From Fimbriimonadaceae bacterium (GTDB lineage: Bacteria > Armatimonadota > Fimbriimonadia > Fimbriimonadales > Fimbriimonadaceae), in the NCBI GenBank assembly GCA_019454145.1, contig CP075366.1:1157564-1221563 (forward strand): a stretch of 64,000 nucleotides of DNA, given 5' to 3'. The notes below the pieces were generated by a model. It saw nothing but the letters and a program-made list of their open reading frames with translations, made no database searches and was not told the DNA's origin. Made by a program: the position numbers and the translations under genes. Shown one piece after another: positions 6,334-17,894 of the stretch (the stretch's first letter is position 1; each line of letters begins with the position of its first letter).

Positions 6334-7329
6334 ATGCCCGAAGTCAGCGTGATTATTCCCAGCTACAACCACGCGGCTTATTTACGCGACTGCATTCAGT
6401 CTATCCTTGACCAGTCGTTTCAAGACTTTGAAATCATCTTGATAGACGACGGATCAACTGACAGTAGTGTGGAATTGGCCAAAGAAATCGCCAATTCTGA
6501 ACCCAGGTTAAGTGTTTTACAGAACGAAAACAATCTCGGCACTTATGGAACCCAGACTCGCGGGTTAGAACTTGCAAAATCGCCGTTTGTCGCGATCATG
6601 AATTCAGATGATTTGTGGGCACCAGAGAAACTTGAACAGCAAGTGAACTTGCTCAAACGGCATCCAGATCTGCCTCTTTGCTACGTGCTTGGCTGGATGG
6701 TGGACAAAGAAGGCAATCCGATTACAATCGACGATGTTCATGCTGATTGGCCGACTTCTGAGATTCAAGAACCACTGCCCTACTTGCTTTACGAAAACCG
6801 AATTCTCGCCTCAGGCGTTTTATGGCGCACGGAATGCGTTCGATTTGAAACAACTTGCCGCTACTCAGGCGACTGGCTCGCATTGCTTGAAGCATCTATC
6901 AAATCTCCTGTGCTTTGCATCAATCAGCGGCTCACTTTTTGGCGACAGCACGAGACCAACTCCTATTTGTTCAGCCACAAACAAGCGTTGGAAGAAATCA
7001 GGGTGCGACAGGCGATTCAAAATCAGTGGCAATCGTGGGATTTGTCTAGATTTGATCAAAGCATGGTTCGCAAAGGTTTAGCGCAGAATCTTATCAACCT
7101 CAGCGCGATGTACGCGTACTTTTACGACATTTCTCTGGTACGCAAATCGCTCCGGGAAAGCTGGAAAATCAACCCCAATCGCAAGCAGGTAGCAAAAAGA
7201 TATTTAGGTTCTTATCTGCCAATAGAGAAATTCAGAAAACACGTTTTCCCAACCTCACAGCCAGAGCAAGATCCTGATAGTTTTAAGAAGATGCTGAATG
7301 AAATTGCTCATCTAGCAATTAAAAAATAG
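6334..7329 (+). CDS. Family 2 glycosyltransferase
   Basis: 331 residues with a GT-A fold. The N-terminus reads V-S-V-I-I-P-S-Y-N-H, followed by I-L-I-D-D-G-S-T-D (about 35-43) and the DXD-equivalent M-N-S-D-D near residue 90. A later W-R-Q-H-E-T-N-S matches the H-x-x-N motif often seen in inverting GT2 enzymes. The C-terminal 60 residues are basic with no membrane helix. It should transfer a nucleotide-activated sugar to a surface glycan or glycoprotein; the donor is unknown. It is divergent from the methyltransferase gene. Its stop codon lies only 4 nt from the end of the convergent virion operon, leaving no room for an attachment site. Confidence 0.9.
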   Translation: MPEVSVIIPSYNHAAYLRDCIQSILDQSFQDFEIILIDDGSTDSSVELAKEIANSEPRLSVLQNENNLGTYGTQTRGLELAKSPFVAIMNSDDLWAPEKLEQQVNLLKRHPDLPLCYVLGWMVDKEGNPITIDDVHADWPTSEIQEPLPYLLYENRILASGVLWRTECVRFETTCRYSGDWLALLEASIKSPVLCINQRLTFWRQHETNSYLFSHKQALEEIRVRQAIQNQWQSWDLSRFDQSMVRKGLAQNLINLSAMYAYFYDISLVRKSLRESWKINPNRKQVAKRYLGSYLPIEKFRKHVFPTSQPEQDPDSFKKMLNEIAHLAIKK

Positions 7330-7333
7330 ATTT

Positions 7334-10195
7334 TTATCCGAATTCAACGCCATCGGAGCTTAGGCTGATTACGACTGAATCTCCTTCAATCGTAATCAGC
7401 TCAATCGCTAAATTGCCGCCTGTCTGATCTAACGTTCCTACCGCTAACCCTGACTCTTCAACGTCAATGCGTGCCTCAGTAACAGATTGAAGCACTGCCC
7501 CGCTCCGATCTCGGATAACTCCGTTTACTGCCCCATCTTCAATCCAATACACAAATCTCCTCCCATCTGGGTGGATCGTTAGTGCGGGATATCGCACGTT
7601 TCCAGTTGCTAATGTTTCTGCCATGCCCCAATTCTCTCCCAGGTCTAGGGAAGTTCTTTCTTTGATCTGACCCTCTTCCTCCGTGACCAAAATCAATTTC
7701 AATTCCCTGCCTAAATCCCACCGAATAGCTAACGAACTTGCCACGTACTCCAATAAGCGGTGACTATATTCCGCCGAGAATCCATTGTTCTTGATGGCCA
7801 GTTCTATTCCGCTGCCCGTAACACTCGCCCGGGCGGCGAGGCCAGCTAAGTGCCAATCGTAGCTCACCGATCCGGCAACCGAAAGCTCATGCAAAACCCA
7901 CCTGTGCCGCCACCGCGTGATGGGCGAGAAATCATCCGTCGAAGTCCCGGCTCGTTTTACAAAGTGATCAGAACCTTCTAAACCTCCTGGAAGGCCAGTA
8001 GTAAACCATCCCCGAGCGTTAGTTGTGTCCTCTCCGCGCAACTCATCATCTAGCAACAGTTGGACAAGCGCGCCACTACGGGGAGCCGACTCGCCCAAGA
8101 TCAATCCCCAAGATTGAGATCGCAAAATCTTCGCGGAAAAGAGTTCTGTTTCAGCACCGAACTCTCCACTTGAGAACCACACATCCCCTGCACCTGGATA
8201 AACCTCGACCGAATCCCACAGTGCCTGAGCGAAAATACCTTTCGCATCAGTACATAGCAAATCCACCCCATTGAGTAGTGAACCATCATCTGCAATCACT
8301 CCCGCTCCCCAAGCTAGTTCAGCTTCTAGCCCATTTGTATGGTAGCCATCTGAAGGCAAGGTGCCTGGCGTGATAATCCAGCCACCGAGTCCACTGAGTG
8401 ATTCTGTAAGGTCGGAAATCGAAACCCAAGAATAAGTTGCTCCCGTTTTCCGCATTGAAGGCAAATCAGCAATTCGGCCATCAACTTCGCTCCAAACCCC
8501 GACTTTGAGTTCGTCCGTTTCTTCCTGCTGTCTGAGCCGAAATTGCCTGAAAGCCGGTAGAAAACTAAGCTTTGCTTCGCCTTTGCGAACCAACGCGATC
8601 TTTCTAATTTCGTAGGTTTCCCCACCCAACAAGTTAGAAAACTCGATTTGCTTGATAAGACTCACTCCCCAATGCTCTGAATCAGTAACTTCCCCAAACT
8701 CATCAAGTGGGTAGCGACTCTCCTTCTCATCAATATCAACCCATGTGGTTCCCGGTTGGCATAAATCAATTGTCCAGGTCACCCAATCTTCCGCATCGCC
8801 CGTTTTTCGTATCCAACTTTTAGAACCGATTGTGATTGTCGCCGGTGCTTGCTCCGTTGTTAAGCTTCGGGCCTCGATTTCTAAATACCGATAGGCTTCG
8901 CTAGCAACGGGCGGTGTAAAGGTTCGTATTGCTATCCCACCTTCTTCCACCGCTATACGCACTGATTCATCCAAGGAAAGCTCAACGTTTTCTCCGCTCC
9001 ATCCGGCAAGTGAGTCACCGTCATCAAGCACTGTTTCCTCAGCATGCTCAACCGTAAACGCCGTCCATTTTCGCCCCCGAAACTGCATCCGCCAATCATC
9101 GACTTGATCTCGATTTTCCGCGAGCGATTCCCCCGTTAGCCAGTGGCGAATCGGCGTCCGATTGTCAAAACTAACCGAATCTTGAGATGAGCCGTCAAGC
9201 ACGCAAAAGGCTTCAAAAGCTTTTTGGCTCCACTCCTCAGTTGCGCTCCCAGATATATCAATTAAATCAGTTGAACCAAATCGACGTTCAAACTCAATCT
9301 GGAACGGTTCTTCAAGTTGGTCTGAGCCAGCAAAGATCGCGCCTTGCCACTTGAATTTGATATCCGGAACACCCCAACAAAATCCGTAACTCTCGCCCGA
9401 TTCGTTCAGCCCTTTTGTGAGTTCCAAATCAAATCCAGTTGTGGCATCAAACGATGCAGTTGAAGTACTTCGCATATAATTCGGCTCAACATCCAGTCCC
9501 GCAGCCGTGCCAGTTATCGAAAGGAGTGCAGTTGCGTTTTCCGCATGGATTGATCCCCGGCGGTCGAGGCTATGGTCAACTTCGCCAAATTCGGAAACAT
9601 CACCGGAAAGAATCGTTCGAGTAAGTGTAAGCGGTGCCAATCCAGTGACTGAAACACCCATTTCCCCGTCCATCTGCAAACGCTCAAAAAACCGAATCGA
9701 ACGTCCGCTAATTCCATCCTTGACCGCATCGCCGCCGCAGTTCGGAAATCCGTCAGCATCCGAATCCTCAATTGGATCAATAACTTCAAACCACTCTTCC
9801 ACGTCGGCCCAAAACGAGTAATCAGCTTGCGGATCGAAATCAAAGATTTCCTCATCGCCTACGGTGTAATTAGTCGTGTTGCTATCTGAATCGGTCGTCT
9901 CAAAACTCAAACCTTCACCTAAAGTGATTCGTTGGTTAACCGTGTACTGCCCAGTTAGTGTGACTGTGCAGGCATTATCTGCCGGAAAACTTCCGAAACC
10001 CGAACTAGGCCAGTATTCGACTTTCATGCCAAGAGCGCGAACCTCAATTGATTCGGGCCAGGCTTCGGAGAATGTGGCATATCGGTTGGGAGCAACTGGC
10101 CATTCGCGCGTGCACCGCCACTCCACTCTGATCGGAGATTGCCAACGCCCGGTCACAATGATGCGACGAGATCGCCCGCTGAGATACTCGGCCAA
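7334..10195 (-). CDS. Large putative tail fibre or receptor-binding protein of the virion operon
   Basis: 953 residues, with a TTG start preceded by GAGGAG at 9-nt spacing. No signal peptide or membrane helix is seen. The sequence is beta-rich with many W, Y and acidic residues. The middle (about 430-550) resembles carbohydrate-binding jelly-roll segments (W-S-G-E-N-V, Y-R-Y-L-E-I-E-A-R, D-L-C-Q-P-G-T-T-W). The last 150 residues carry BNR/propeller-like repeats (D-L-G-E-N-W-G, H-P-D-G-R-R-F-V-Y-W). As the last gene of a capsid-tail operon it fits a host-contact or adsorption protein. I recognise no specific family. An alternative is a domesticated adhesin made with the particle. Confidence 0.55.
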   Translation of the reverse strand: MAEYLSGRSRRIIVTGRWQSPIRVEWRCTREWPVAPNRYATFSEAWPESIEVRALGMKVEYWPSSGFGSFPADNACTVTLTGQYTVNQRITLGEGLSFETTDSDSNTTNYTVGDEEIFDFDPQADYSFWADVEEWFEVIDPIEDSDADGFPNCGGDAVKDGISGRSIRFFERLQMDGEMGVSVTGLAPLTLTRTILSGDVSEFGEVDHSLDRRGSIHAENATALLSITGTAAGLDVEPNYMRSTSTASFDATTGFDLELTKGLNESGESYGFCWGVPDIKFKWQGAIFAGSDQLEEPFQIEFERRFGSTDLIDISGSATEEWSQKAFEAFCVLDGSSQDSVSFDNRTPIRHWLTGESLAENRDQVDDWRMQFRGRKWTAFTVEHAEETVLDDGDSLAGWSGENVELSLDESVRIAVEEGGIAIRTFTPPVASEAYRYLEIEARSLTTEQAPATITIGSKSWIRKTGDAEDWVTWTIDLCQPGTTWVDIDEKESRYPLDEFGEVTDSEHWGVSLIKQIEFSNLLGGETYEIRKIALVRKGEAKLSFLPAFRQFRLRQQEETDELKVGVWSEVDGRIADLPSMRKTGATYSWVSISDLTESLSGLGGWIITPGTLPSDGYHTNGLEAELAWGAGVIADDGSLLNGVDLLCTDAKGIFAQALWDSVEVYPGAGDVWFSSGEFGAETELFSAKILRSQSWGLILGESAPRSGALVQLLLDDELRGEDTTNARGWFTTGLPGGLEGSDHFVKRAGTSTDDFSPITRWRHRWVLHELSVAGSVSYDWHLAGLAARASVTGSGIELAIKNNGFSAEYSHRLLEYVASSLAIRWDLGRELKLILVTEEEGQIKERTSLDLGENWGMAETLATGNVRYPALTIHPDGRRFVYWIEDGAVNGVIRDRSGAVLQSVTEARIDVEESGLAVGTLDQTGGNLAIELITIEGDSVVISLSSDGVEFG

Positions 10196-10198
10196 TCG

Positions 10199-10345
10199 CT
10201 AACTCTCCTCGTTGAGCCGCTTGACGTTCCGCACAAGCTTTTTCGCTAATTCGCCCGAGCCCCGTGTGACAACTGTCCGCGACCTGGCTAACCGCCGGGA
10301 AGCGAGAACGATACTTTTCAAACTGACTAAGGGACGAAACTGCAT
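10199..10345 (-). CDS. Small basic protein in the virion operon
   Basis: A 48-residue frame found by reading between the two large tail genes. The ATG at 10345 overlaps the TGA of the upstream gene (TGATG), and the stop TAG is at 10199-10201. The product is very basic, with about 11 Arg/Lys, and helical (R-R-L-A-R-S-R-T near residue 20, A-K-K-L-V-R-N-V-K-R-L near 35). The ribosome site of the next gene (GAGGAG) lies in its last codons, which fits real translational coupling. No family is recognised. It could be a small tail-assembly or nucleic-acid-binding factor, or simply a coupling peptide. Confidence 0.55.
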   Translation of the reverse strand: MQFRPLVSLKSIVLASRRLARSRTVVTRGSGELAKKLVRNVKRLNEES

Positions 10346-12510
10346 CAGAGAAGCTCACCCACATAAAGCGCCCGCCGGTAAGTGCCAAGCGACGATTCGA
10401 ATTCAAACCTTACGCCAAATGAGCGAATTCGCACATCGCCAAGGCCAAAAATACGGACGACATCACCTCGCCAGACTGGAACCCCTCCTGCTTTTTGAAG
10501 AAACTCTGCCTCAAACTCCACTAACTCCTTTCGGGCTGTGAGGTCATCAAATAACGCCAAGCAAGCTGAATCAATCGCCGCCTGTTCGGTAAGCCCAGCA
10601 TCAACCAAGGCAAATCGTCGTATGGAACCGCTCCATCCAGCAGAACGTGAGCCAACTGTCGCCGCGACTGTTTGAGCGGCGTAGTCGGTCTTTACACTCT
10701 GCAGTGGGCGTCCAGTACGAGGATCGATTCCCGTAACTCGAACCTCGTTCGCCGCTGGTTCCAAGGAAGCATGAGTGAGTGATCTGAAAGTTAATTTCGA
10801 CGCTTCCAATTCATCAATTCCATCCAAAATTGCTTCTTCGCGGGATGCGAAAAGGGTAACAGCAGGTTCAGAATCCAGTTCCGCAATGGGCAAAGCATAG
10901 AACTCTTCCCCGCTTCCATCGGGAGCCGGACGAAACCCGTAAAACCAGCTCGGAGCAAAAGTCTCCATTAAGCGCCGAAGCCAATCAGAGGCACGGTCGC
11001 CGGATTCGATTAACATCCCCCATTCCCCACTGATTTCTCCGGACGAAAATGGAAGTTTAAGGCCGGGCGAAAATACGTTGATCCGCTCTGGAGCAATGCC
11101 ACTTTTCTCAACCAGCAACCTGATCGCCTGTTCAAACGGAAGCCCATCAAGCGGGATTCGGTCAGCAAAAATAGCATCTTCTAAGGCAAGCCATCGGTCG
11201 CGGATTTCCAAGGTTCCACGCGCAATGTTTCCAGAAGAATGACTAGCATCCATCGCGCCACAGATGCCTTCCAAAATAGTTTCTTCGTCTATGCGTAGCT
11301 GAGCCGGCAACCGCCCAGCTGATAAACCTCCGCTTGCCAAGTCGTCAAGTTCAGATGCTCTCAATAGGTCAACATCAAACACAACCCCACTGGCCCGATC
11401 AGGGACAGATAGAACTGCTGATTCCACGTACTCTGCGCAATCAAAAGCACTTTCGCCATCCGTTAATCCGGCGATCGCCGCATAGCCTAACTGAGCACCC
11501 ATCACAAATGGAGTGAACAAATCATCCGTCGTTTCCAGATTAAATTTCACCCTGATTTCGTTAGCGGCTCCATCAGGCGAGAACTCAGTAACTCCATCCC
11601 ACTCCACCAACGAAGCAATTACGGTCTGATCTCCACTACTGAATCCCGGGAATCCGTAAATCTTGTAGGGGGCGGGAGAATTCAGCCAACTATCGTTCTC
11701 AAAGGCAACGAGTTCCTCGTCCGCCTGAGGTGCCTCTAAGAAACTGGTCTTCAATGAGGTCGCGAATCCGGCAGTTGCGTATCGAATTGGCGCAATCTGC
11801 GCCTGAGTTGCGCCACTTTGACACCTAAACCAAATCTTGCCTGCCGGAGTGATTTCCGGCTCGCTTTCAGTCAATTTAATATCATTGAAGACAACCGAAA
11901 ATCCATCCCCACTTTGCGAAACTATGAGAAGCTCTCGTTTCCGCATCGGAATAATTATCACTTCGAAAACTTGTAGCCGTCGGACTTCCCGCGATTTCGC
12001 CCCGCTGATCTTTCCCGACTGGATGAACTCGCCGTTTCGATAAACATCAACTCGACCGTCGCTCCAAAACTGAAGCGCAACTCCACCGCTTGTGGCGGCC
12101 TCGTTGTTCCAGCCCAGTTCGTACTGCAAAAAGGTATCGCCTGCCCCGTAGCTAAACCAGCTAAATGAAAGCCCCATGTTCTTGGGATAACTCGCAACGG
12201 AAAGAGCGGCGGGATTGGCTGACGCATTTTTGACTGCCAGCCAAGGCCCCGCCCAGTGCTGGTCTTGCCGTTCTTCCCACGCCGAATCAGTGTCGAAATC
12301 AGCAAGTCCAAGCTTGGCGTAGACACCACTCGATTCCGTGTACCACTCCGTATCCAAAGATCGAGGACGAAGCATCAGCGTGTGCGTGATCGGATCAATC
12401 CAGGTGCTTTCCCAAATCGCTCCGTTAAGTTCCAACCCGCCCGCTACCACGGTCAAGCGATCAGCCGCAAGCCGCCGCTGACTGTGGTTGATATTCAATA
12501 CAAAACTCAT
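10345..12510 (-). CDS. Putative tail-tip / baseplate hub protein
   Basis: 721 residues from the ATG at 12510, chosen because AAGGAGG lies 9 nt upstream; the open frame extends 17 codons further. The first half (about 1-300) is beta-rich with a lectin-like segment (S-F-S-W-F-S-Y-G-A-G, W-S-D-G-R-V-D-V-Y-R-N-G-E). The second half (about 370-721) has the feel of phage hub or late-control proteins, including I-D-P-R-T-G-R-P-L-Q and a C-terminal W-R-G-D-V-V-R-I-F-G-L-G-D-V-R-I-R-S. It starts 2 nt after the chaperone-like gene, where a tape-measure gene would normally be. The role is inferred from position and weak resemblance only. Confidence 0.5.
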   Translation of the reverse strand: MSFVLNINHSQRRLAADRLTVVAGGLELNGAIWESTWIDPITHTLMLRPRSLDTEWYTESSGVYAKLGLADFDTDSAWEERQDQHWAGPWLAVKNASANPAALSVASYPKNMGLSFSWFSYGAGDTFLQYELGWNNEAATSGGVALQFWSDGRVDVYRNGEFIQSGKISGAKSREVRRLQVFEVIIIPMRKRELLIVSQSGDGFSVVFNDIKLTESEPEITPAGKIWFRCQSGATQAQIAPIRYATAGFATSLKTSFLEAPQADEELVAFENDSWLNSPAPYKIYGFPGFSSGDQTVIASLVEWDGVTEFSPDGAANEIRVKFNLETTDDLFTPFVMGAQLGYAAIAGLTDGESAFDCAEYVESAVLSVPDRASGVVFDVDLLRASELDDLASGGLSAGRLPAQLRIDEETILEGICGAMDASHSSGNIARGTLEIRDRWLALEDAIFADRIPLDGLPFEQAIRLLVEKSGIAPERINVFSPGLKLPFSSGEISGEWGMLIESGDRASDWLRRLMETFAPSWFYGFRPAPDGSGEEFYALPIAELDSEPAVTLFASREEAILDGIDELEASKLTFRSLTHASLEPAANEVRVTGIDPRTGRPLQSVKTDYAAQTVAATVGSRSAGWSGSIRRFALVDAGLTEQAAIDSACLALFDDLTARKELVEFEAEFLQKAGGVPVWRGDVVRIFGLGDVRIRSFGVRFEFESSLGTYRRALYVGELL

Positions 12511-12512
12511 AA

Positions 12513-12749
12513 CTAAAACCTCCTTAATCGAAGTGCCTCTCCTAATGCTTCGTCCATCCAATCCAACACTGAAGAATCCGTATTGATTGCTTTTGGAGTT
12601 GATAAATTATATTCGGCTTCCGAATAATTAATGTCCGCTGATTTCTCTAACTCAGGTTCAAAGTTCAATGAAAACGCTGACTGTATGTTCACTGATCGGG
12701 CAACGAATCCGACCAACCCTTTCAAAGATTCAAAGCCGCCCGACTGCAT
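12513..12749 (-). CDS. Second tail-assembly-chaperone-like frame
   Basis: 78 residues from the ATG at 12749, preceded by AGAAGG. It overlaps the end of the 12730-13071 gene by 20 nt in the +1 frame. Gene order (tail tube, then two small overlapping frames) matches the gpG/gpGT chaperone pair of long-tailed phages, where the second frame is often reached by ribosomal frameshifting. The upstream frame ends CTT TGA, the same slippery codon pair used in prfB; a +1 slip there would continue at GAA, codon 7 of this frame. No domain is recognised. It ends 2 nt before the hub gene. Confidence 0.55.
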   Translation of the reverse strand: MQSGGFESLKGLVGFVARSVNIQSAFSLNFEPELEKSADINYSEAEYNLSTPKAINTDSSVLDWMDEALGEALRLRRF

Positions 12750-13071
12750 CTACCTTCTCCGCCAACTCGGCAAAGAGCAGGCCCGAAGTGCGGGCAATTT
12801 CCAATGCTTGATCTAGTGAAATGAGCGGGTTTATTATCAGTTCCGAAATCGCCACCGCGCTTGCAATGGCGTCGTCGGATAACTCGGCTGATTCAGCCCG
12901 AACTCCCTCCATACGGATTTCATTTAGAACACGCTTAGCCGTTTGAACAAGGTGCTGAACTTCGTCGTAGCCCACAGTTGTCCGAACCTGAAAAGCCCTA
13001 TCCTGGACAATCACTTGTTCGTAACACGGCTGAGCTTTGACCGCGCTCAGATAATCAGTAAACCAGCTCAA
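12730..13071 (-). CDS. Putative tail assembly chaperone
   Basis: 113 residues using a TTG start at 13071. That codon overlaps the tail-tube TGA (TTGA) and has AAGGAG at 7-nt spacing; the open frame extends 11 codons further but would overlap the upstream gene. The protein is helical and acidic (A-Q-P-C-Y-E-Q-V-I near residue 12; a long helix from about 50; I-I-N-P-L-I-S-L-D-Q-A-L-E-I-A-R near 80). Its position right after the tail tube and its overlap with a second small frame are the classical features of the tail chaperone. Sequence alone does not give the family. Confidence 0.55.
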   Translation of the reverse strand: MSWFTDYLSAVKAQPCYEQVIVQDRAFQVRTTVGYDEVQHLVQTAKRVLNEIRMEGVRAESAELSDDAIASAVAISELIINPLISLDQALEIARTSGLLFAELAEKVDAVGRL

Positions 13072-13838
13072 CTGACCGCTCCTTGGCTGGCAAAGTCGTA
13101 CCAACTCTCTACCGCTGATCCACTGGAAAAACGAAACCCAAAAGCCTTCACCAAAAAGTCGCCCGAATAGCCATTCGCTTCAATAGCAAGGGGCACTCCC
13201 GTAGAATTAAGTGAATATGCCAACAGCGTCGCGCTCCCGGTTGGCGATGCGGGATATGCCCCGAAAACGGGGGCCGAACCAATCAAAGAAACCTCCCACG
13301 TTTGCACTTGACCCGCCGTCATTTTATGCTCAAATTTGGCGAGAAGGAGAGTGAGGTTGATTGTAATTCCGTTAATGGCCATACTGATAGGCACTGTTTT
13401 CTCCGAGAGTGCTCCAAACGCTTTGCCGACCAAAACCGCAGAAGATTCAGTATCAACTGCCATCAAAAACTTAGCCCGGTAATCTTTCTGCACCGCGACC
13501 GGCCAAGCCCATTCATCACTGATGCCACTCGTTTCTTCGTGTTGGATCGTGCCCTCAAACAGAACTTCTCGCACAACTGGTCGGAAGTCCGAACCCGCCA
13601 ATAACAAGGCGGAAACATCCAAATGCGTAACTCTGATGCCTCCGCTCTTAGAACTGAGAAGCGCACCCTTGATTGCCACATTCTGCTTTACAGGTTCGCG
13701 GATCGCTCCTGCCGAAACAACAGGCGTCGCATTCATAAAGTTAGTCGTGGATATCACCTCTGCCGACTTCAAATCTGCCAGCAAATCTGCCTCACCCACA
13801 TTAAAAACTGATACATCTATTCCGGTTAATCGAGCCAT
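13068..13838 (-). CDS. Putative tail tube protein
   Basis: 256 residues, with an ATG preceded by AAGGGGATAGG. The N-terminus reads A-R-L-T-G-I-D-V-S-V-F; the middle holds H-E-E-T-S-G-I-S-D-E-W and K-M-T-A-G-Q-V-Q-T-W-E-V-S-L-I-G. The latter phrase is typical of beta-sandwich tail-tube proteins that treat an extra domain of about 80 residues as decoration. There is no signal peptide. The position between the neck genes and the chaperone pair supports the tube role. It would polymerise on a tail tip at a length set by a tape-measure protein, which is missing here. An alternative is a minor tail or capsid-decoration protein. Confidence 0.6.
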   Translation of the reverse strand: MARLTGIDVSVFNVGEADLLADLKSAEVISTTNFMNATPVVSAGAIREPVKQNVAIKGALLSSKSGGIRVTHLDVSALLLAGSDFRPVVREVLFEGTIQHEETSGISDEWAWPVAVQKDYRAKFLMAVDTESSAVLVGKAFGALSEKTVPISMAINGITINLTLLLAKFEHKMTAGQVQTWEVSLIGSAPVFGAYPASPTGSATLLAYSLNSTGVPLAIEANGYSGDFLVKAFGFRFSSGSAVESWYDFASQGAVS

Positions 13839-13844
13839 AACAAC

Positions 13845-14258
13845 CTATCCCCTTGCCGCACTCATCCAGCAACTAAAATTCACTAACAAATCGAACTCAT
13901 GGTCGCCGGGCGTTTCCTGTTCTATCTGCACGCTGGTTACAAGTGGTGAATCAGCAACGCCGGCCGGATTCGCTGAACCCAAAAGCTCTGACCTTAAACT
14001 CTCAGCATCCGCGATCAACTGATTGCCCACAATCCCCGCAGTAACTTCGCGCCGCACCCTAATCTCAAAGTGAGTCTGCAAGCGATCAAATTTTACGGTT
14101 TCCGAATGAAATTCCAGATACTTGGTTACTACCCTTGCGAACGGAACTCCAAAGTCACGTTCAGGTTTTTCCGTAGCAACAAGCATTCCTGGCCAAACCT
14201 CATTGATTGCTTCAACTAGCCAGTCACGCACAGCAATAACGTCGCTTCCCCAACTCAC
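13845..14258 (-). CDS. Putative tail terminator / neck protein
   Basis: 137 residues starting at GTG 14258, which overlaps the preceding stop (GTGA). The pattern matches small tail-completion proteins: an N-terminal helix with V-R-D-W-L-V-E-A-I-N-E-V-W-P-G, then P-F-A-R-V-V-T-K, then beta strands with E-I-R-V-R-R-E-V. This resembles the phage minor tail protein U or HK97 gp10 group, which caps the tail tube and joins it to the head. The family call is from pattern and gene order. Confidence 0.55.
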   Translation of the reverse strand: MSWGSDVIAVRDWLVEAINEVWPGMLVATEKPERDFGVPFARVVTKYLEFHSETVKFDRLQTHFEIRVRREVTAGIVGNQLIADAESLRSELLGSANPAGVADSPLVTSVQIEQETPGDHEFDLLVNFSCWMSAARG

Positions 14259-14590
14259 GAATCCAACCTCTCGACAACAACTTTTGCGTGGTCAGTTGGC
14301 AGGCCCATACTGAACCGCATTGGGTCAACTAGCACTCGGTATTTCCACACATCCAAAACAATCTGGTCTCCCAGTTCAACTGCTTCCGAATCCTCCAATT
14401 CCATTAACACAACCGCTAAGTTTTGACTTTCGACATCAATTAAGTCGCGAACTTCATGCGCCGCCTTTTCAACCAACAATCCGCTGAAGGTGTTGCTCCA
14501 AACCCATTCGCTTTTCACGACTCTTCCTTCAACCACTTCCGGCACTAATTTCCATAATTGAAATTCGTGAGGTTTCCAAACAAGTGCCAA
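14255..14590 (-). CDS. Putative head-closure / head-tail adaptor
   Basis: 111 residues, with a TTG start at 14590 two nt after the upstream stop and GGGAG just upstream. It is a compact beta-rich protein (W-V-W-S-N-T-F-S-G-L-L-V-E near residue 28; L-G-D-Q-I-V-L-D-V-W-K-Y-R-V-L-V-D-P near 75). The last strand pattern (D-x-V-x-x-x-x-x-Y-R-V) is common in SPP1 gp16-type stopper proteins. Its position between the connector and tail terminator fits a head-closure protein. No conserved catalytic residues are present. Confidence 0.5.
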   Translation of the reverse strand: MALVWKPHEFQLWKLVPEVVEGRVVKSEWVWSNTFSGLLVEKAAHEVRDLIDVESQNLAVVLMELEDSEAVELGDQIVLDVWKYRVLVDPMRFSMGLPTDHAKVVVERLDS

Positions 14591-14592
14591 AT

Positions 14593-15171
14593 CTAGGCTC
14601 CCATTCCTGATGCCCAGTAACGAGCAAAAACCAGTCGCGCCCGATCAGCAAGTAGCGAAGCCATCCGAGTAGAAAGTGCATCCGCTCGGTACTTCACTGT
14701 GACCGAATCTTGTTTAACTGACTCAATATCCGAAGTGCTGTTTTGGGCAATCATCTCAATCACCCAACTCGCCGCCAAATCACGAACTGCATACCAAACA
14801 TCACCAGGGACAGTCAGTCCATATCCAGCCCGTCCGGCCACCGAAACCGCTCCAGATATTCCTTCAGCCAGCCGAACAACCCGAATCGGAATAATCCCGA
14901 CTGGGCATGCTGTCCATTCAATTTCCTCTTCATTTAGTTTCACCCACTCAATGCTCGCAAACGGCTGAGGCAAAGCCACCGATCCATCTGCCGCTAACTC
15001 AATCTCGGCAACCCCTTCTGCCAAAAAAGGAGAAAAACCGACCAACGATTCCAACTCGGCAACTGCCCTTGCCACCAGCTCCTCAATATCGGCAGAAGGC
15101 AGCGAACTATAACCGCAATCTTGCAAAAATTCACCGACCTGCGTTTCGGTCGGCCACGTATCAAAAGACAT
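14593..15171 (-). CDS. Putative head-tail connector (gp6-like)
   Basis: 192 residues from the ATG at 15171, chosen for the GGGAGGATTATTA ribosome site. The sequence begins W-P-T-E-T-Q-V-G-E-F-L-Q-D-C-G-Y, then a helix (A-R-A-V-A-E-L-E-S-L-V-G-F-S-P-F), a beta hairpin region, and a long C-terminal helical half (V-R-D-L-A-A-S-W-V-I-E-M). This helical shape with a central beta insertion is that of HK97 gp6 or gp15-type connector rings below the portal. There is no portal gene in the window. The role rests on order and general resemblance. Confidence 0.55.
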   Translation of the reverse strand: MSFDTWPTETQVGEFLQDCGYSSLPSADIEELVARAVAELESLVGFSPFLAEGVAEIELAADGSVALPQPFASIEWVKLNEEEIEWTACPVGIIPIRVVRLAEGISGAVSVAGRAGYGLTVPGDVWYAVRDLAASWVIEMIAQNSTSDIESVKQDSVTVKYRADALSTRMASLLADRARLVFARYWASGMGA

Positions 15172-15191
15172 TAATAATCCTCCCTCACACA

Positions 15192-15217
15192 AGGGCGACC
15201 TATTGTTAGGTCACCCT
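15192..15217 (-). terminator. Stem-loop between the capsid and connector genes
   Basis: AGGGCGACCT (15192-15201) pairs with AGGTCACCCT (15208-15217) with one C-A mismatch. It sits 10 nt after the capsid gene stop on the transcribed strand. The U-run is absent, so it may be a partial terminator or RNA-stabilising hairpin that keeps the capsid message more abundant than the downstream genes. Confidence 0.5.
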
Positions 15218-15227
15218 ATATTCATAT

Positions 15228-16457
15228 TTAGCTCAGCCCGGTCAGCTTACAGATCGACTGATCGCGTAGCACTTGAAGCCCTGCCCGAACAACCGCACGG
15301 ATCGCCACTTGGTTGGAGGTGAAATAATCTTCATGTGAATTGCTACTTGCCACTGTCAGTTCGCCGCGGATTTTGATTCTGGAAAAGTCTGTATCAAGCA
15401 CCATTCCTGTACCCGCGGTGAGAGCTTCGCTCGCCACGATTTGCACGCCCCATACTCGGTTCAGCGGTGCATCCCCGGGATGTCCAAACACATATAAACC
15501 ATCAGAGGTTTTGGTCAGCGCTAGCGATTGATAATTATCGCTATGGAGCACCACCAAGTTTGGCTTAGCCCGACCCGACGTTCGCACTTTCGTCATTGCT
15601 TTCATGATCTGATCGAAGGGCGAATCTGTTCCCGCCGCTTGGGAAAGAACCGCCGACTGGTTGTACAAACCCAAGATATTGGAGCCAGTGCCATCCCCAA
15701 CTGTAATCTGCTCATCCAATTTCTGCCGAACCATCAGTTTGAGGTCTTCATCAATGAGTGCACGAACTCCCGGCTCGTCGTCCAGTTGCTCTTCGGTAAT
15801 CGGCAAAAACACACCAATCTTACGGATGTTGACCGTTGCCTCCGAATAAGCGATTGTCGCTTCTTCCAGGCCTACCGTCTCACCTTTTGCTCCAGCCGTA
15901 TTTGTTCTTGTTGACTGCTTCATAAACTTAATCGCGTTTTGATCGGTTTGATCAATGCGGATCAGGTCAAGCAGTTGCGGAGGTCGGGAAATAATCGGTA
16001 CAACCGTTCCATCACGAAGCACATTTGGAGCAAATCCAGAACCGGTGGTCATCGTGTTCTTTACACCGATAAAGGTTAAAGCCGCACGATCAAGTTCAAC
16101 ATCGCTGAACTTTCCGCCCACTCGACCGTTCCAAGCTGAACTCTTCAGAAATTGTTCGGATACCGAATGGGTATCGACCACCGCCGCAACCCGATTGAGC
16201 GGCCGAGAATTCTCAATCTGCTTCGACTCAATAGCTTGAGCATTTTCAAATGCCGATAAAGCAATCTCGTGTTTGGATGCAACTTCGTTGATGTCGTCCA
16301 TCATTCGGCGCAACCCTTCCAGGTCATTAGCAGGGATATCTTTAACCTGCTTGCCGTCAACTAACGATTTTGTTGGGTAGCCATCCCACTTTTGTTTATA
16401 TGCCGCCCGCTTTGATTCAAGCTCACGACCTAATTCAATATGATTAACACTATTCAT
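15228..16457 (-). CDS. HK97-fold major capsid protein
   Basis: 409 residues. Residues 1-100 are a charged helical delta/scaffold region with many E, K and R, expected to be removed by the protease encoded just upstream. The rest matches the phage capsid family: G-S-G-F-A-P-N-V-L-R near 140, P-P-Q-L-L-D-L-I-R-I near 160, an E-loop region with G-A-K-G-E-T-V-G-L-E-E-A, then I-G-V-F-L-P-I-T-E-E-Q-L-D-D, a D-E-Q-I-T-V-G-D-G-T-G segment, and a C-terminal W-G-V-Q-I-V-A-S-E. It should form an icosahedral shell. The frame is fully intact. It could also form a domesticated compartment. Confidence 0.92.
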   Translation of the reverse strand: MNSVNHIELGRELESKRAAYKQKWDGYPTKSLVDGKQVKDIPANDLEGLRRMMDDINEVASKHEIALSAFENAQAIESKQIENSRPLNRVAAVVDTHSVSEQFLKSSAWNGRVGGKFSDVELDRAALTFIGVKNTMTTGSGFAPNVLRDGTVVPIISRPPQLLDLIRIDQTDQNAIKFMKQSTRTNTAGAKGETVGLEEATIAYSEATVNIRKIGVFLPITEEQLDDEPGVRALIDEDLKLMVRQKLDEQITVGDGTGSNILGLYNQSAVLSQAAGTDSPFDQIMKAMTKVRTSGRAKPNLVVLHSDNYQSLALTKTSDGLYVFGHPGDAPLNRVWGVQIVASEALTAGTGMVLDTDFSRIKIRGELTVASSNSHEDYFTSNQVAIRAVVRAGLQVLRDQSICKLTGLS

Positions 16458-16480
16458 TTCTATCTCTCTCTTTCAAAAAT

Positions 16481-17038
16481 CTAATTGGTTGAACCGCTCA
16501 AGTGCTGGTTCCATTCAGTGCTGAGCTGTTCAATAGCCACTAAATCCAGCTCCGTTGCGGACTCCTTCAAATAAGTAACTTCAGCATTTGCCACCGCTGG
16601 CAAAGTTACTAAACTGAACTCTTTGAGTTCAATTTTTTTCAGCAACCGAACCCGCTTTCCATTACGAGTTTCAAACCCCCACTCAAGCGGCAGGTAGCCA
16701 ATACTAAGGCCGACCCGCTTGCCCGCCTGCAGACGTTCCTTCGTCACAGTTTGGGCAGACTGAGCCGCCTCAGTAGAGTGGAATTCCATTCCAACAAACA
16801 ACCCTTTTGCATCTTCTACCGCTTGAGAGATGTAACCAATCGGAATTCCCGAATGGTCGTGACCCACCGCAACGAATCCGCTACGAACGAATTCAGCTAA
16901 GTCACCGTATGCTCCATCCAAAATTACGTCGCCATACGCATCAACAACGTGCTTAATGGAGGCGTATCCTTCCAGAGCCGATCCTAGTTCACACGCAGAG
17001 CCAATCTGCACATCTAGCAAACAAATCTTCCGCTCCAT
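16481..17038 (-). CDS. HK97-family prohead protease
   Basis: 185 residues with the family layout: an N-terminal beta core with G-Y-A-S-I-K-H-V-V-D-A-Y-G-D, the active-site histidine region V-A-V-G-H-D-H-S-G (His60/His62), and the nucleophile region K-R-V-G-L-S-I-G-Y (Ser112), followed by the L-K-E-F-S-L-V-T-L-P-A-V-A-N-A-E strand that closes the fold. It cleaves the scaffold arm of the capsid protein during head maturation. It is the first gene of the minus-strand operon, only about 60 nt after a cellular gene. The portal and terminase genes normally found upstream are absent. Confidence 0.92.
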   Translation of the reverse strand: MERKICLLDVQIGSACELGSALEGYASIKHVVDAYGDVILDGAYGDLAEFVRSGFVAVGHDHSGIPIGYISQAVEDAKGLFVGMEFHSTEAAQSAQTVTKERLQAGKRVGLSIGYLPLEWGFETRNGKRVRLLKKIELKEFSLVTLPAVANAEVTYLKESATELDLVAIEQLSTEWNQHLSGSTN

Positions 17039-17099: not shown

Positions 17100-17894
17100 T
17101 TAATTCTTACTAAATTTGGCTGATCCAAAAATAGAAAGCTTGTCATCAGCGGGCTTCCAGCCTGGAATGTTCTTCCAGAATGTGTCGCCCATCGAGCTAT
17201 CAAATTCGCTAAGTCGCTTCTTAAGCATCTGAATTTTTTTCTCTAGCACCGGATCAACCTTCGCCCGATTCGCAACAAATTCTCCATCAACAATCATGTG
17301 AGCAAACAGTTCAGCCTTGTCTTCCTCAACTCCAGAAGTGCCGTAAAGTGTCAAAAATCCTGGAATCTTATCTGTCAGTGATCCTGCGCCGCTTGTTCGC
17401 ATTTGCGCTCCGCCTGAGCCATATTTAAAATCTGGTGGATTCAAAGCCGCCCATTCAGGGTCAGTGTATAGCCGTTTTTCTCGTTGATCCACCATGTGAA
17501 AATACTCATGGTGAACAACGTTCCGCTGATAGTTAGAATTGTAAGCACCTGCAGCTGTGTCATAGAACATCCGATCGGCATCATAAGAAGGCACCGCCGC
17601 CCGGAACTGATTATTGAGCGACAACGAAATGCAGAAAGTGATCTTAGAAACTTTGGTTTTTTTGACAAATGAAACTGGGTACAACTTCCATTCCTTCGCA
17701 AATAGCTGAGCGTATTTGTCAAGGGCATCTTGCGGTGCTGGCTCACCTCTTACTGTGTATCCCTGGCCTTGCCACGAAACAGTCGATGTCGGAACCTCAA
17801 CTTGAAAGCCATATTGCGCTCCCAATTCCGATAATGGAGAAGGTGGTGTTTGTCCAATCCCGGTGGCAACCAAAACTGCTAATGTGCCTAACAT
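17100..17894 (-). CDS. Exported HExxH putative metallopeptidase
   Basis: 264 residues with an N-terminal hydrophobic segment (about 1-15, a signal peptide). A zincin signature H-H-E-Y-F-H-M-V-D-Q places H129, E130 and H133. About 70 residues later V-E-E-D-K-A-E-L-F-A-H supplies a plausible third ligand (Glu) in the E-x-x-A-E pattern of gluzincin-like families. It should be a periplasmic or secreted zinc protease or zincin-like binding protein with an unknown substrate. A second HExxH exported protein occurs at 36917. It lies upstream of the virion operon on the same strand. Confidence 0.65.
   Translation of the reverse strand: MLGTLAVLVATGIGQTPPSPLSELGAQYGFQVEVPTSTVSWQGQGYTVRGEPAPQDALDKYAQLFAKEWKLYPVSFVKKTKVSKITFCISLSLNNQFRAAVPSYDADRMFYDTAAGAYNSNYQRNVVHHEYFHMVDQREKRLYTDPEWAALNPPDFKYGSGGAQMRTSGAGSLTDKIPGFLTLYGTSGVEEDKAELFAHMIVDGEFVANRAKVDPVLEKKIQMLKKRLSEFDSSMGDTFWKNIPGWKPADDKLSIFGSAKFSKN

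Follow-up and report, generated by a model that had tools for sequence, protein, structure and literature searches.

Only a few gene transfer agents (GTAs) have been shown experimentally, and most of them are alphaproteobacterial. As reviewed elsewhere, GTAs tend to be distributed over multiple loci, at distances that can reach hundreds of kb, and they apparently have several origins. In RcGTA of Rhodobacter capsulatus, a siphovirus-derived tail is joined to a domesticated head of the HK97 type; this GTA is inherited vertically and has its loci spread over the chromosome (PMC9662315). For FpGTA of Faecalibacterium, particles, packaged DNA and the proteome have been demonstrated (PMC12946183). 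The literature searched yielded no report of a GTA from Armatimonadota. Here, we analyzed a stretch of 64,000 nucleotides, hereafter the window (contig CP075366.1, positions 1,157,564 to 1,221,563), from the 2.76-Mb single-contig genome of a Fimbriimonadaceae bacterium (Armatimonadota; genome G000), in which positions 7334-17038 carry an operon of phage head and tail genes. Judged by the anatomy and evolution of its genes, this locus probably represents one half, that for head and tail, of a domesticated phage element of the GTA-like kind, the other half of which lies 1.55 Mb away.

The head-tail locus comprises ten substantial, co-directional frames on the minus strand, which overlap or are closely spaced except for a gap of 149 nucleotides ahead of the last gene. 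All of them are unbroken; the initial annotation was right about the common strand and the intact state of the frames, while it had counted about eleven. The identity of two products is certain. The prohead protease of the S78 family (16481-17038, 185 amino acids) matches PF04586 (Peptidase_S78; 9e-13) and phrog_80 (1.5e-21), and inspection of its translation indicates that what we take, from general knowledge of the family, to be the histidine and serine motif residues is kept. The HK97-fold major capsid protein (15228-16457, 409 amino acids) matches PF05065 (Phage_capsid; 3e-36) and phrog_10 (1e-41), and its profile found HK97 gp5 (2fs3) in the PDB at 5e-44. A third gene, encoding a head-tail adaptor or connector of 199 amino acids (14593-15192), was assigned by its match to phrog_442 (4e-7). 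Neither terminase nor portal nor a long tape-measure frame occurs in the locus, no integrase was seen among the flanking genes read, and the longest att-like direct repeat at the locus ends is at chance level (10 bp versus a shuffle mean of 9.7). The G+C content of the locus resembles that of the host, and both of its ends abut cellular genes that are not part of the element. The end of the last tail gene is separated by 4 nucleotides from a glycosyltransferase gene (6334-7329, plus strand; PF00535, 1e-33), a flank of the ancestral cluster described below, and 61 nucleotides lie between the protease gene and a metallopeptidase-like gene (17100-17894, minus strand; PF15890 at 1e-4, below the cut-off), which is followed by pgk and is syntenic with pgk in the congener G081. 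Collectively, these results bear out what had been read from the letters of the window with regard to the recognizable protease and capsid, the missing packaging and tape-measure genes, the cellular borders and the lack of integrase and repeats.

A search for a solitary portal/terminase cluster elsewhere in the genome had been set beforehand as a check on the locus, and such a cluster was found. It is situated at C1:2726365-2731433 of the same chromosome, outside the window and 1.55 Mb from the head-tail locus, or approximately 1.19 Mb on the assumption of a circular chromosome. The whole genome has one PF04860 portal (3e-36; C1:2727633-2728856), which is surrounded by genes for a CHAP endolysin, a holin-like protein of 65 amino acids, an 82-amino-acid protein, TerS (PF20901, 2.5e-28), TerL (phrog_2, 2e-38), a convergent sigma-like protein and an S24/helix-turn-helix repressor, followed by DusB. 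The terminase family PF03354 misses the TerL of G000, which was located through the portal neighbourhood; on inspection, its translation still contains a Walker A motif (GRRWGKT), a Walker B motif (LDE) and aspartates that are candidates for the nuclease site, residues that we presume to be the relevant ones from general knowledge of the family. This packaging, lysis and regulation locus also stands between cellular genes, and no integrase was recognized on either side in the regions read. Hence, a phage-like locus without packaging genes warrants a search of the whole chromosome before it is dismissed.

Selection was assessed by comparing G000 with the congener G081, which has 95% capsid identity and the same two-locus layout, and in which, as in G000, every frame of both loci is open. 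The ratio of nonsynonymous to synonymous substitution rates (dN/dS) amounts to 0.03-0.17 for the head-tail genes (protease 0.056, capsid 0.031, adaptor 0.11, the neck protein of 111 amino acids 0.12, the terminator-like protein of 137 amino acids 0.09, tube 0.12, chaperone-like protein 0.17, hub 0.07, tip protein 0.10), with 0.28 for the small protein in the tape-measure slot. For the packaging, lysis and regulation genes it amounts to 0.00-0.15 (TerS, TerL and portal 0.04-0.15), and the holin-like protein has zero amino-acid changes between the two genomes. The synonymous divergence (dS) of the element, 0.33-1.08, brackets that of the host genes pgk (0.71) and dusB (0.86). In another genus, g16, five genes of a related operon show dN/dS of 0.02-0.16. 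Both halves are intact and under purifying selection, and the comparison of dN/dS and synteny among relatives that the initial annotation had recommended turned out as a split GTA-like locus predicts: nearly every gene of the two loci has a value of 0.03-0.17, and G081 shares the two-part layout. Furthermore, the trees of TerL, portal, capsid, hub and repressor recover the pairs (G000,G081) and (G078,G079), the same as the trees of the host genes purB and dusB, with no supported conflict; as far as the trees resolve, both halves are inherited in step with the host.

The other members of the genus carry the parts in different arrangements. G081 has the same split as G000. The head-tail operon of G078 and G079 is divergent from the neighbouring endolysin, holin, 82-amino-acid protein, TerS and TerL genes; portal, sigma and repressor genes are found approximately 6 kb further on beside DusB, in an orientation opposite to that in G000, and a homologue of the glycosyltransferase of the window occurs near the same operon end. 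In G080, glycosyltransferase and DusB genes are neighbours, separated only by a repressor remnant that comprises the C-terminal half, G082 retains the repressor and a sigma-like match, and in G083 the capsid was not detected. The adjacent, rearranged or lost parts in congeners indicate that both halves come from one ancestral cluster that was vertically inherited, rearranged and sometimes lost. Most likely, this single cluster stood between glycosyltransferase and DusB, and most likely a rearrangement in G000 and G081 split it between its two divergent late operons; for a single exchange at purB as the cause of the split, the second breakpoint was not resolved in the attempts made. One genus therefore displays intact, rearranged, partly deleted and lost states, which makes phage domestication readable step by step. 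Several further observations were made in these genomes. G083 contains a single frame of 816 amino acids (L075 6859-9309), in which the portal runs into an SGNH hydrolase and which is apparently the scar of the deletion that took out the head-tail operon. In genus g16, the protease is fused to the capsid. Elsewhere in G078, a prophage-like region (C1:600237-614320) encodes a portal, a capsid and a tape measure, and G081 has a tape-measure fragment containing a stop (C1:1732615-1732845).

The remaining head-tail genes have no significant family match and were named by position. The names of connector, neck, tube, chaperone and hub, of which all but the hub had already been proposed from the letters, are backed by collinear counterparts both in two prophages (G012 and G001) and in Synechococcus phage Sc-Yong805-2. 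After the adaptor follow a stopper-like neck protein (14255-14590, 111 amino acids), which is conserved in the genus and collinear with the prophages, and a tail-terminator or neck-like protein (13845-14258, 137 amino acids), also conserved within the genus. The putative tail tube protein (13068-13838, 256 amino acids) has a weak match to PF06199 (0.11, below the cut-off) and shares 33-36% with its homologues in genus g16. A tail-assembly-chaperone-like protein (12730-13104, 124 amino acids) is encoded ahead of the tape-measure slot, which is taken by a protein of 78 amino acids (12513-12749). The tail hub/tip protein (10345-12561; 721 amino acids from the likely start ATG at 12510), which follows the tape measure in prophages, shows 31% over its length to the G012 prophage and 30% to the counterpart of Sc-Yong805-2. 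The hub profile gave no significant match to PDB sequences, and no close viral relative of the hub was found in IMG/VR; many relatives of the capsid occur there, but within other modules. The last gene of the tail operon encodes probably a tail tip or receptor-binding-like protein (7334-10195, 953 amino acids), which is 52-88% identical within the genus and has no match in Pfam and PHROG family searches. In relatives, the tip side of the tail operon carries a GDSL/SGNH hydrolase gene (L067 1436-2377, L064 2442-3551, L063 18698-19540; that of G081 was recognized only by its sequence), while the window genome has none at this place, where 4 nucleotides separate the end of the tip gene from the glycosyltransferase gene.

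Prophage relatives encode a tape measure of 501-593 amino acids between chaperone and hub, whereas the slot protein in the genus of the window has 73-86 amino acids, and a C-terminal LDWxDE motif is, by eye, common to the slot proteins. A tape-measure profile built from three sequences found the prophage copies in G012, G001 and G078 and had no match in G000, G079, G084 and G083, so that the absence noted in the locus extends to the genome. The slot protein of the window was also considered as a truncated tape measure, a reading that was rejected since it does not resemble such proteins. Genus g16 has proline-rich proteins of 173-187 amino acids in the slot, with weak similarity to tape-measure C-termini (shuffle p of 0.003-0.008 versus two of four tape measures, with many pairs tried). 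The chaperone was weakly matched in G046 (E 0.002) and was undetected in G078, G079 and G084. The missing tape measure, together with no detectable chaperone in three congeners, suggests that the particle would have a very short tail; the element thereby departs from a siphovirus type, in which a tape measure sets the tail length.

Kogay et al. (2022) listed six defining features of GTAs (PMC9662315), two of which rest on experiment, among them the delivery of encapsidated DNA to other cells; the other four were tested and all are found here. First, protease, capsid, adaptor, portal, TerS, TerL and endolysin significantly match phage families, consistent with caudoviricete-derived proteins; such similarity is one of two accepted proofs of a caudovirion-like particle (PMC9662315). 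Second, the element appears fully endogenized, in multiple loci as is often the case for GTAs, since two loci stand between cellular genes with no integrase in the regions read and no att-like repeat. Third, with more than 1 Mb between the halves, the complete set would not fit into any particle, a statement that relies on the distance between the loci; the published form of this test compares packaged length with locus size. Fourth, congruent pairs, a common ancestral site with its flanks and host-like dS point to mostly vertical inheritance and co-diversification with the host. A functional temperate prophage would be contiguous and would carry integrase or replication genes and att sites; here, the genes are split, and none of these was seen in the regions read. 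Intact but separated main parts for building, filling and releasing a virus-like particle that is incapable of replicating itself are the signature of a domesticated phage that ships host DNA.

Some findings weigh against this interpretation. The absence of a tape measure puts the formation of a working tail in doubt, and TerS retains a terminase family match, which leaves room for sequence-specific packaging. The codon usage of the locus is somewhat unlike that of its neighbours, and no promoter motif common to both loci was found above shuffles. The purB and dusB trees of the host are poorly resolved outside the two pairs, and the element was not found, or only partially, in three of the eight genomes of the genus (G080, G082, G083). 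In G078 (CP021423; L065/L091), frames are split in the protease, tube and tip genes; these are likely sequencing indels, because the proline dehydrogenase frame is split as well.

Among the alternatives, a PBSX-like defective prophage maintained as a killing particle, which packages host DNA and acts against relatives without it instead of serving as a DNA carrier, appears unlikely. Its lysis genes and S24 repressor would suit an inducible killing prophage, the tip protein belongs to the faster-evolving large genes (88% identity at the dN/dS given above), and PBSX itself has been reported to package random host DNA (PMC12946183); however, the element has no tape measure or long tail and is not one continuous prophage, no immunity gene was recognized in it, and portal, TerL and capsid are under strong selection. 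It is very improbable that the loci are leftovers of a slowly decaying prophage, whose genes are just not yet broken. Such decay might be seen in the loss in G080 and the partial loss in G083 and G082, in the disappearance of the tape measure and, in three species, of the chaperone, and in the split frames of G078, but it is difficult to reconcile with dN/dS of 0.03-0.17 at dS up to 1.08, with open frames throughout G000 and G081 in two separated loci, and with congruent trees; decay was rejected on the dN/dS values plus the same split kept in two species. Finally, a retention of head-tail and packaging genes for a use other than DNA transfer, for example as protein compartment or protein-delivery particle, which the reduced tail and tip proteins without assigned function could suit, is likewise very improbable, because TerS, TerL, portal and endolysin are under purifying selection (0.04-0.15 for the conserved TerS, TerL and portal), the translated TerL still shows ATPase and nuclease motifs on inspection, and a packaging motor is superfluous to a compartment. 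Hence, from the three options offered by the initial annotation, the split GTA-like locus is supported, while the evidence disfavours a system that serves purely as a compartment or for protein delivery.

Regarding the regulation of the GTA-like element, repressor and sigma-like gene are divergent, and their shared intergenic region holds a palindrome over the sigma promoter, with the core TAGTAGAC-N5-TATACTAT in G000, which is kept with some changes in the five species compared. The S24 type of the repressor suggests a release upon DNA damage. In a possible scenario, stress, probably DNA damage, would inactivate the repressor and thereby free the sigma-like gene, whose promoter overlaps the conserved palindrome, and the sigma factor would then turn on the late operons. 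Capsids would assemble and TerS/TerL would load host DNA through the portal, a very short tail would be added, the tape measure being absent, and endolysin and holin would lyse the cell, so that the freed particles might deliver host DNA to kin. Two other features of the packaging locus were noted. The 82-amino-acid protein between the holin-like gene and TerS (L062 441-689) is shared at 71-96% with four other species of the genus and at 56% with G083, and has a dN/dS of 0.036. In the gap between endolysin and purB, approximately 180 bp (L062 1434-1614) are nearly identical between G000 and G081, by eye above the conservation of neighbouring coding sequence; this stretch had no Rfam match, and the search for RNA elements returned tRNAs only.

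A second, Mu-type packaging and capsid system occurs in the family. Most other Fimbriimonadaceae have a TerL, usually single, which adjoins a Mu-like portal (PF06074) in nearly all loci examined (for example L079 8237-10586, L081 9260-11638 and L084 7789-10205). A Mu-like capsid (PF10124) is present in 47 of 85 genomes and 21 of 32 genera, in operons with protease, a 145-amino-acid virion protein and connector-like genes (L251 8262-11731; L255 8380-10828); a PF10124 match was also obtained in the control genome of Synechococcus elongatus. These capsids (L251 9731-10717 and other PF10124 matches) align to the gpT profile in the blocks 5-140, 215-289 and 150-216, the last two apparently swapped. 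The loci are mostly single copy and occupy two chromosomal places between cellular genes, and in the complete genomes examined the capsid operon is away from TerL and portal (about 1.03 Mb in G062, 20 kb in G053). Between G062 and G063, TerL, portal, protease and capsid have dN/dS of 0.03-0.11 and the connector-like gene 0.55. No tail genes were recognized beside the Mu-type loci, which possibly represent a family-wide GTA. The Mu-type capsid accompanies the Mu-type TerL in 43 of 46 genomes and is absent from all ten genomes that carry the HK97-type system; this mutual exclusion is suggestive only, because those ten cluster in two genera plus one prophage.

These observations allow a wider proposal, which we regard as tentative and somewhat short of even odds. 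The element of the window might be a GTA with a nearly deleted tail, derived from a siphovirus that lost its tape measure and, in part of the genus, subsequently its chaperone, controlled by a switch of S24 repressor and private sigma factor and shuffled by host rearrangement. Across the family, two unrelated domesticated systems, HK97-type and Mu-type, would not be found together, as though one GTA could take over the role of another in the host. The contrast between them would allow asking whether GTAs are interchangeable and selected for DNA packaging itself, not for the phage of origin.

With regard to known phages, the element resembles Synechococcus phage Sc-Yong805-2 and the G012 and G001 prophages in the collinear series of portal, protease, capsid, connector, tube, chaperone and hub, and in a homologous hub. 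All three encode a tape measure of 501-593 amino acids, which the window's element lacks, and the phage Sc-Yong805-2 also has an integrase in its annotation, whereas the element is split and showed none in the regions read. The features of RcGTA named at the outset, a domesticated HK97-type head, a siphovirus-derived tail, vertical inheritance and dispersed loci, have their likeness here, but the tail of this type I alphaproteobacterial GTA measures 49 nm. Its phage ancestry is likely independent from that of our element, because the HK97-type capsid profile, searched against the PDB at E 0.001, found HK97 gp5 with no RcGTA chain listed, and TerL has its nearest phage relatives in phages of Thermus, Halorubrum and Tunturiibacter. 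Among published systems, FpGTA comes closest in layout and in its short tail; it likewise occurs outside Alphaproteobacteria, is encoded in two far-apart operons (approximately 10.5 and 5.5 kb in size, about 125 kb apart), has lysis genes away from the capsid operon and shows either no visible tail or a very short one (PMC12946183). This likeness is one of layout and presumed tail length, drawn between demonstrated particles and a set of genes. In FpGTA, packaging genes accompany the capsid, and lysis genes accompany the tail-fibre genes (PMC12946183), whereas in the Fimbriimonadaceae element capsid and tail genes stand together in one locus, and packaging, lysis and regulation genes together in the other.

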